NCBI GenBank assembly: GCA_015055735.1
Contig: SVHP01000013.1
Span: 1 to 35,138, forward strand
Length of the DNA stretch: 35,138 nt
Reading direction: 5' to 3'
Source of the DNA: Clostridiales bacterium
GTDB lineage: Bacteria; Bacillota; Clostridia; Christensenellales; Borkfalkiaceae
Positions 13,899 through 31,092 of this stretch are shown here, piece by piece (positions within the stretch are counted from its first letter, which is position 1; each line of letters starts with the position of its first letter). The translations under genes were made by a program, and so were the position numbers. The notes under the pieces are model-generated. The model ran no database searches and had not been told where the DNA came from. It worked only from the letters and a program-made list of their open reading frames with translations.

Positions 13899-14253
13899 GG
13901 GGGCGTTCTAGATTCGATTGGGCGTTGTTTGGACGGGTATAAGCATACCGAAGGCTCGGCTTCGTAAAAACGGAAATTAAATTTAAATGCTAACAATAAC
14001 GAATTAGCATACGCTGCTTAATTTAAGCGTACGCCCTATTTGTTCTCTCCCGTTGGAACAAATAAGGGTGTCAGTTTAGACGGGGTACTGCATTAAAATT
14101 TTGATTGTGGTTTTATTGTGGGATTTAGCAATCTAGAAAGGAATAAAGGTTGCCGTTAGCCGTATTCCTTTTGAAACTTAATTATCGGATAAGTATGTAG
14201 AAAACTTTTCTAAAGCGTTCAAGACCGGAGTGCAAGTCTCCGCGTCTCCACCA
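13899..14253 (+). ncRNA. ssrA: tmRNA (ssrA)
   Basis: Transfer-messenger RNA that rescues stalled ribosomes and tags the nascent peptide. The 5' end GGGGGCG (13899-13905) pairs with CGTCTCC (14243-14249), followed by the discriminator A and encoded CCA. The conserved GTTCTAGATTCGA of tmRNA 5' ends is present. The T-arm is CGGAG/CTCCG with loop TGCAAGT (14231-14237), which has G where the usual T-loop has its second T. The tag frame reads from GCT at 13989 to TAA at 14019-14021, giving ANNNELAYAA. The final AYAA replaces the common ALAA. The total of 355 nt is usual. smpB and rnr lie upstream. A strong terminator follows. I could not identify a convincing promoter. Confidence 0.95.
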
Positions 14254-16364: not shown

Positions 16365-16631
16365 ACCGTGCAACTAGTTTTGACAGTGATCGCCGAAGCG
16401 TTAACATAGTAGGTGGCTCCCTCAAAGCAACCTTATATCACACGAAACTGACTGCTTAGTGCTGCTGTATTCCTACTCTGACACGGTTCACAGGGCTTCG
16501 TTGCATAAGACCTTGATATCATCACTCCTTATTATGCACAGCCTTCCACGATAAAAGCCTAGACTAGCATTCTGTTCCGCTAAGCGAATTGCGGATTACA
16601 GGGCATCGCTAACTCCCCACATAGCACGGCT
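16365..16631 (-). ncRNA. Signal recognition particle RNA, large Gram-positive type
   Basis: RNA scaffold of the signal recognition particle, which with Ffh directs ribosomes making membrane proteins to the SecYEG channel. On the minus strand the 5' end GCCGTGC (16630-16624) pairs with the 3' end GCACGGT (16371-16365). The Alu-domain segment GTGGGGAG..TAGCG.TGCCCTGTA near the 5' end is very like Bacillus scRNA. The conserved helix 8 is present with GTCAG, the GGAA tetraloop (16473-16470) and CAGCAGCA, and AACGCTT lies near the 3' end. The length of about 267 nt matches the Gram-positive class with an Alu domain. The 3' end runs into a T-run followed by the shared terminator. The gene is divergent from ileS. 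Confidence 0.95.
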
Positions 16632-30437: not shown

Positions 30438-30469
30438 AGAAGGAAAATTTTGTGATGAATTTTCCTTCT
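30438..30469 (+). terminator. Likely 3' hairpin of the tig-clpP-clpX operon
   Basis: A perfect 12-base-pair stem, AGAAGGAAAATT (30438-30449) with AATTTTCCTTCT (30458-30469), extendable by two A-T pairs. No T-run follows (AATCATTATG), so it may act as an mRNA 3' end stabiliser or a weak terminator. Confidence 0.55.
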
Positions 30470-30519: not shown

Positions 30520-30548
30520 TTGACAAGCCTAATTATATTTTGTATAAT
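30520..30548 (+). promoter_or_regulatory. Full-consensus promoter of the S10 operon
   Basis: TTGACA at 30520-30525, 17 bases, TATAAT at 30543-30548. An imperfect inverted repeat (AGCCTA at 30526-30531, TAGGCT at 30552-30557) flanks the spacer and -10 box. Confidence 0.85.
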
Positions 30549-30555
30549 ATATAGG

Positions 30556-30671
30556 CTGTGTAATCTGGGATGATACGGGAAGTTACTTAATTTGCCTATG
30601 CAAAAGATAATTTCCGTTGACAAGTGTGGGGGCAAGACCCCTGCGACTAACTTCAAATTTAGAATTAGCAG
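30556..30671 (+). ncRNA. Structured leader RNA of the S10 operon (three-way-junction-like)
   Basis: Three helices can be drawn by hand. The closing helix joins CTG..TAATCT (30556-30566) to AGAATTA.CAG (30661-30671). Helix 1 is ACGGGAAGTTA (30575-30585) with TAATTTCCGT (30608-30617), one bulged G, and an inner hairpin TTTGC-CTAT-GCAAA (30591-30604). Helix 2 is GTGGGGG (30626-30632) with CCCCTGC (30638-30644) and loop CAAGA. The intrinsic terminator 30674-30722 follows at once. GAAGTTA of helix 1 could alternatively pair with TAACTTC (30648-30654), and TACTTAA (30584-30590) with TTAAGTA in the terminator (30696-30702), which is a switch-like arrangement. I cannot match it to any known riboswitch or ribosomal-protein leader. 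Confidence 0.6.
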
Positions 30672-30673
30672 AG

Positions 30674-30722
30674 TCATTCGCAGCGACTTAAAAAGTTAAG
30701 TATCGGCGAATGATTTTTTATT
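30674..30722 (+). terminator. Leader terminator (attenuator) upstream of rpsJ
   Basis: Outer stem TCATTCGC/GCGAATGA (30674-30681 with 30706-30713), inner stem ACTTAA/TTAAGT with loop AAAG, then TTTTTTATT. It lies 70 bases before rpsJ and after the promoter, so it would control entry into the whole operon. Confidence 0.85.
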
Positions 30723-30792
30723 ATCGAAAAAGGACACACACGGCAGAGTTTACAGCACACAGTAAAAGTTAGGTAAAAAAGGAGAAACAAAA

Positions 30793-31092
30793 ATGGCAAG
30801 TCAAAAAATCAGAATCAAATTGATGTCTTATGACACAGAAATGCTAGATCAAGCAGCAACGAGAATCGTTGATACTATGAAAAAATCTGGCGCAAAAATC
30901 AGTGGTCCAATCCCACTACCAACAGAAAAAGAAGTTGTTACTATTCTTCGTTCACCACACAAATATAAAGATTCACGTGAACAATTCGAAGTAAGAACTC
31001 ACAAAAGACTCATCGATATCTATTCGCCAAACATTAAGTTGTTAGACAGCATTCACTTACCAGCAGGCGTTGATATCAAAATCAAATTGTAA
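30793..31092 (+). CDS. rpsJ: 30S ribosomal protein S10
   Basis: Head protein of the small subunit and, as NusE, a transcription antitermination partner of NusB. The 99 residues match the family: [10 protein letters not shown] at the N-terminus, ...ISGPIPLPT, and the [21 protein letters not shown] block. It is the first gene of the S10 operon, with AAAAAAGGAGAAA before the ATG. Its own antitermination role is worth noting because the operon's leader ends in a terminator. Confidence 0.98.

Follow-up and report, generated by a model that had tools for sequence, protein, structure and literature searches.

A probable S10-leader homologue (RF03136) with a predicted terminator and pseudoknot upstream of rpsJ in a clostridial genome

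The S10 operon encodes many ribosomal proteins. How it is controlled in Firmicutes has been little tested. In E. coli, L4 acts on the operon and the leader contains an intrinsic terminator (PMC10931766, in the part consulted); for C. difficile, the consulted sections of a heat-stress study say that the E. coli L4 model finds no support in its proteomic and transcript data (PMC3933415). For Firmicutes, an S10 leader with numerous examples from Clostridia has been published, with Yao 2007 cited for it (PMC7247131, excerpt), and an rpsJ motif of Peptostreptococcaceae, RLC-47-1, has been reported from three genera (PMC11109978, excerpt). The consulted portion of a ribosomal-protein leader table (PMC4342826) contains no S10 entry, and the literature searched yielded neither the term S10-Clostridia, the name of Rfam family RF03136, nor a description of the pseudoknotted fold proposed below, nor a confirmed ligand for the leader.

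The window analysed here is the whole of a 35,138-nt stretch of DNA from a Clostridiales bacterium of the family Borkfalkiaceae (contig SVHP01000013.1, forward strand). A first-pass annotation of the window, made from its letters, had placed a full-consensus promoter, about 245 nt of structured leader and an attenuator before the S10 operon, and the view of a structured leader carrying an attenuator is well supported. The following features delimit the locus:

30520..30548, + strand: sigma-70 type promoter, TTGACA-17-TATAAT, matching the consensus at 12/12 positions
30555..30561, + strand: predicted transcript 5' end, GCTGTGT, with the start inferred from the -10 box
30780..30784, + strand: Shine-Dalgarno sequence AGGAG, read from the sequence
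30793..31092, + strand: rpsJ (ribosomal protein S10), open reading frame, first gene of the S10 operon

The leader spans about 238 nt, from the predicted start near 30555 to the rpsJ ATG at 30793. Its DNA is single-copy in its own genome, a closely conserved leader is present at 30 loci of the genus, and a promoter-like match is present at 29 of 30 genus loci, window included. Homologues of S10 turned up in 53 of the 61 genomes searched, a count that includes the window's own.

Searches with Rfam models gave nothing at gathering level in the window leader; at E ≤ 10 they gave scattered matches far under the family cut-offs, among them no ribosomal-protein leader and no RF03136. No Rfam riboswitch matches the leader, in agreement with the first-pass judgement that it resembles none. 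RF03136, whose cut-off is 35.1 bits, had no match in the window's own genome, and across 25 genomes of the genus it matched the rpsJ leader only in G014 (19.9 bits, E 0.05). In two others of these genomes it scored higher away from the leader, at 24.8 and 23.7 bits; both matches fall within open reading frames, coincide with no gathering-level Rfam match and look like chance.

A covariance model, R1, made from 46 cores of the window's family, window among them, detects the element far more widely; its E-values are rough, the calibration having been short. R1 finds one copy in the window's own genome (94.4 bits). It marks a single site in each genome that it matches, these being 181 of 201 in the family and 77 of 200 in the order. 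At other rpsJ loci it matches 30 of 61 at E ≤ 10 and 24 of 61 at E ≤ 0.01, and all 30 matches are on the coding strand, 5' of rpsJ; the matched loci include Paenibacillus, Aneurinibacillus, Clostridium and, weakly, Mesobacillus. In all 11 R1-matched genomes with a known place of rpsJ (G000, G014, G040, G047-G049, G055, G057-G060), the R1 match is 5' of that gene. RF03136 passes its own cut-off in 5 of 10 loci given, at places shared with R1, for which the R1 E-values are 7.6e-6 (L114), 0.0011 (L127) and 0.0078 (L131), with weak values of 0.024 (L126) and 0.82 (L120). R1 and RF03136 likewise match one place in the order member G048, and also in G047, there below the Rfam cut-off. The Rfam search recommended in the first-pass annotation returned nothing at gathering level for the segment itself; homology to RF03136 emerged through R1 and the shared sites. 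The statement that this RNA is like no known ribosomal-protein leader does not hold: its core is homologous to RF03136, and a Firmicutes S10 leader is in print (PMC7247131, excerpt). We conclude that the leader is very probably an S10-leader homologue (RF03136, S10-Clostridia), with confidence lowered by the weak same-genus RF03136 score; since it scores under the RF03136 cut-off, we class it as a divergent homologue and not as an Rfam member.

Other RNAs came up in these searches. Rfam reports a tmRNA at 13899-14253 of the window (+ strand), absent from the ARAGORN list, a large bacterial SRP RNA at 16366-16629 (- strand), and a THF riboswitch on the opposite strand of one rpsJ-bearing locus (L086, 38-148, - strand). 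Mimicry of 23S rRNA domain I, suggested by eye from GAUGA...GGGG...CUAAA, was not found at the sensitivity used: with filters off, R1 gave four matches of 5.8-6.9 bits in E. coli rrn plus five clostridial rRNA loci (22104 bases), the best at 6.9 bits (E 4.5), and none in the 23S domain I region.

In the predicted fold, the leader has a core with two hairpins (P1, P2) and, over longer distances, the helices PK1 and P0:

30567..30651, + strand: conserved core homologous to RF03136, comprising GGGATGA, P1, GACAA, P2 and GCGACTAAC, matched by R1
30575..30617, + strand: hairpin P1, pairing 30575-30581 with 30611-30617 and 30586-30587 with 30605-30606
30625..30645, + strand: hairpin P2, pairing 30625-30632 with 30638-30645
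30647..30651, + strand: 5' strand of PK1, CTAAC
30768..30772, + strand: 3' strand of PK1, GTTAG, 8 nt before GGAG
30556..30561 with 30738..30743, + strand: P0, joining the transcript 5' end to ACACGG on the 3' side of the terminator
30733..30754, + strand: conserved distal element GACACACACGG....GTTTACA, containing the P0 3' strand ACACGG

Leaders were collected from 30 genus loci, 15 other-genus loci and 11 (of 80) further loci, of which a first parse read 47 of 56, giving alignment A1 with 46 distinct cores. With 40 further regions added later, 90 of 97 leaders were parsed (unparsed: L067, L233, L237-L240, L245), and 85 of these are unique, 34 from the genus and 51 from elsewhere in the family. 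Because the genera are related, the leader counts below are not independent events.

In A1, 90.5% of cells are paired, vs 35-62% when the partners are slid, and the covariation score is 0.281 against a shuffled mean of 0.180. Double changes occur at 11 of 23 pairs, a figure equalled by 80 of 500 shuffles; the other four covariation measures are reached by 0 of 500, in a test that favours the structure, which was derived from the same A1 sequences. RNAalifold, run without an input structure, recovered P1, P2 and PK1. The P1 lower stem has double changes at 4 of 7 pairs with 99.4% of cells paired, and P2 has double changes at 5 of 8 pairs (RNAalifold consensus). Covariation, which the first-pass annotation had proposed as a check, bears out P1 and P2 together with PK1 and P0, the last two not listed there; the covarying helices are partly others than those it had drawn and extend to 30772. 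It had likewise overlooked the GACACACACGG element and that the core is homologous to RF03136.

The loop of P1 occurs in 31 variants within the genus. In several sister genera (L217-L219, L229-L232, L234, L066) a palindromic TCCGGA-loop hairpin is conserved at the P1 tip, a possible kissing or protein site. A leader peptide was considered and dropped: the ATG at 30570 opens six codons, and it is absent in 36 of 46 aligned leaders.

The parser required C-N-R-A-C at the PK1 5' strand and nothing at the partner strand, and a five-pair partner (G-U allowed) stands before the Shine-Dalgarno sequence in 85 of 85 unique leaders, vs 14% per leader by chance in shuffled tails. The variants are CTAAC/GTTAG (78 leaders), CGAAC/GTTCG (6) and CTGAC/GTTAG (1); the six CGAAC/GTTCG leaders may represent one event, since all come from genus g27. 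In every one of the 85, the PK1 3' strand ends 4-15 nt before GGAG. P0 forms at least five pairs in 82 of 85 unique leaders (34/34 in the genus, 48/51 elsewhere), is equalled by 8-9% of shuffles on average, and shows two-sided changes outside the genus (GTGTAT/ATACAC, GCGTGT/ACACGC, TGCGTAT/ATACGCA). Because P0 and PK1 interleave, together they would form a pseudoknot. A strict pattern for the distal element matches 31 of the 44 genomes of the genus, once per genome. Two loci (L074, L078) carry an extra element of ACACCCGG/ACGCCCGG type upstream of the leader, roughly 290 and 375 nt before rpsJ, that resembles a second copy of the distal element.

Outside the family, complementarity between the core 3' end and the stretch before rpsJ reaches p ≤ 0.05 in 5 of 22 loci, with a combined p of 0.0015 when the loci are taken as independent; the 22 are part of the 30 R1-matched loci, 8 having been skipped for little or no room between core and rpsJ. 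Evidence for the distal helix outside the family is supportive and uneven. By eye, a stretch ACACMCGG lies 3' of the terminator in the window's family; in Bacilli (L126, L109, L114, L124, L132) ACACMCGG is found, also by eye, inside the P1 loop, with the core directly before the Shine-Dalgarno sequence. Two further pairings are weaker within the genus. A possible second pseudoknot, of the P1 apical loop AAAGCC with GGCTTT beyond PK1, has at least five pairs in 36 of 51 non-genus leaders, with suggestive changes (TAAGCC/GGCTTA, GTTAGCT/AGCTGAT), and only 6 of 34 in the genus; it is equalled by 45% of shuffles on average. A helix enclosing the terminator, P3, is present in 46 of 51 other leaders vs 15 of 34 genus leaders, and since within the genus 45% of shuffles do as well, we make no claim for P3 in the window.

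Between the core and the PK1 3' strand lies the terminator, whose T-run had been noted in the first pass:

30671..30719, + strand: intrinsic terminator with a 4x4 internal loop AGCG/ATCG and a T run at 30714-30719
30679..30684, + strand: CGCAGC within the 5' arm of the terminator, which could pair with GCUGUG at 30555-30560

The hairpin has a folding energy of -18.9 kcal/mol (z -4.97). It is missing from the list of a simple consensus scan, which we attribute to that scan's stem and loop limits. Folding of 30549-30735 gives z -2.64, better than 200 of 200 shuffles, and folding of 30549-30664 alone is unremarkable (z -0.89, equalled by 35/200), so the low-energy fold comes from the terminator. 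Within the genus, all 34 unique leaders retain the hairpin letters CAGCGACTTA..TAAGTATC. A longer exact pattern is present in 38 of the 44 genomes of the genus, as a single copy in all but G004 (two copies); G337, among the six without it, has the leader with one letter changed next to the loop. G004, a bin with 5% contamination, has two rpsJ copies (contigs C83 and C92), each with the conserved terminator hairpin. Across the family, the terminator sequence varies between genera, and by a crude test a terminator-like hairpin with a T-run lies between core and rpsJ in 75 of 85 leaders. Attenuation at this terminator is likely.

The switch drawn in the first pass is not kept in relatives. It had given GAAGTTA (30579-30585) two competing partners, and both pairings exist in the letters of the window. 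With the partner at 30608-30614, six or more of the seven pairs survive in 33 of 34 leaders of the genus and in 50 of 51 from elsewhere in the family; the pairing with TAACTTC at 30648-30654 reaches that level in 30 of 34 genus leaders but only 7 of 51 others, leaving the switching unsupported outside the genus. The proposed antiterminator TACTTAA:TTAAGTA is complete in only 21 of 34 genus leaders, and 9 of 34 set TACTGAA against an unchanged TTAAGTA. Both the antiterminator and the alternative partner TAACTTC were rejected.

A different candidate pairs the transcript 5' end with the terminator 5' arm. CGCAGC:GCUGUG appears in the minimum-energy fold of 23 of 26 genus leaders when the terminator 3' arm is omitted. 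GCTGTG stands near the start in 72 of 90 parsed leaders (not made unique), and 62 of these 72, from 9 sampled genera and 5 ungrouped loci, have at least 6 uninterrupted pairs to the terminator region; the ten without are from g27 (5 leaders), g28 (3), L063 and L072. The duplex is worth -9.7 kcal/mol in the window, equalled by 20 of 200 shuffles, and as this is much weaker than the -18.9 kcal/mol of the terminator, any effect of the antiterminator would have to be kinetic. For L064, L066, g126 and g130, most of the complement of GCUGUG falls in the hairpin loop, where a pseudoknot fits equally; for that reason we hold the pairing as a candidate, moderately supported by these counts and put forward tentatively.

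According to the hypothesis that we favour on balance, the leader is a divergent RF03136 homologue with a terminator and a pseudoknot that mediates autogenous attenuation by a protein of the S10 operon. Excess free protein would bind the core; the 5'-terminal GCUGUG would then release the terminator 5' arm, the terminator would form, and transcription would stop near 30719. With little of the protein present, read-through would follow, and P0 and PK1 would fold around the terminator; PK1, standing 8 nt before GGAG, may also contribute control of translation. That the ligand is an S10-operon protein is suggested by the operon itself and by E. coli, where L4 acts; L4, rather than another protein of the operon, is a doubtful choice, our confidence having been lowered by the C. 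difficile study (PMC3933415), which in its consulted part speaks against the E. coli L4 model.

The most serious alternative places control at translation: binding to the core, with PK1, would block or expose the rpsJ Shine-Dalgarno sequence, and the hairpin would be a constitutive partial terminator. The placement of PK1 close before GGAG in all unique leaders fits this, as do 7 of the 30 R1-matched loci (Bacilli type) in which the core adjoins rpsJ and leaves no room for a terminator. Yet the T-run hairpin persists in most family leaders despite its genus-specific sequence, and we regard mainly translational control as rather unlikely. The hairpin could also be the terminator of the upstream clpX transcript, with no regulatory role, clpX being directly 5' of the leader region; but a separate inverted repeat stands right behind clpX (30438-30469, read from the sequence), the T run follows the predicted start of the rpsJ transcript by about 160 nt, and the hairpin letters are constant throughout the unique genus leaders, making this explanation highly improbable.

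A small-molecule riboswitch would fit the compactness of the core and the high conservation of unpaired nucleotides in it, but the window leader matches no Rfam riboswitch, the core is homologous to a catalogued ribosomal-protein leader family, and it lies 5' of rpsJ in each of the R1-matched genomes with a known rpsJ place; we give it slightly less credence still. Least credible of all is that S10/NusE-NusB antitermination via a boxA-like site governs read-through, a candidate raised in the first pass: the first gene does encode S10, which is NusE (PMC10931766, in the part consulted), but a simple pattern test found no boxA-like site in the leader.

Autogenous attenuation by an S10-operon protein can be extended, speculatively, to a proposal that the S10 leader of the window's family is a pseudoknotted dual device. 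Its parts, improbable when required jointly, are that the first seven transcript nucleotides opt either for the terminator hairpin or for the distal ACACGG, that the core 3' end pairs beside the Shine-Dalgarno sequence, and that, in the genus, the terminator hairpin with its conserved 4x4 internal loop belongs to the protein-binding site. If this were true, a single protein would govern the whole S10 operon at both levels, transcription and translation. The ligand question can be reduced to constructs: a PK1 swap, a 5'-end swap and internal-loop mutants. The helices described here extend the catalogued core through the terminator to the Shine-Dalgarno sequence, and R1 finds homologues below Rfam's cut-off.

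Set beside the described systems, the window leader shares with the L4-controlled S10 leader of E. coli its operon and the presence of an intrinsic terminator (PMC10931766, in the part consulted); the first-pass annotation saw no likeness between the two, and the R1 search over rRNA loci gave no 23S-like site for the window's core. With RLC-47-1 it shares a place in the 5' UTR of rpsJ and a clostridial lineage, a comparison by position only, and it differs in that RLC-47-1 is from another family (PMC11109978, excerpt). The likeness to RF03136 is one of parts: by eye, both lie before rpsJ, with GAUGA before P1, GUUxC opposite AGxU in P1, and UGU-hairpin-GCGA for P2. The RF03136 model has 81 positions and stops at the core, whereas the PK1 3' strand, P0, the ACACACGG element and the terminator are outside it and present in the window.
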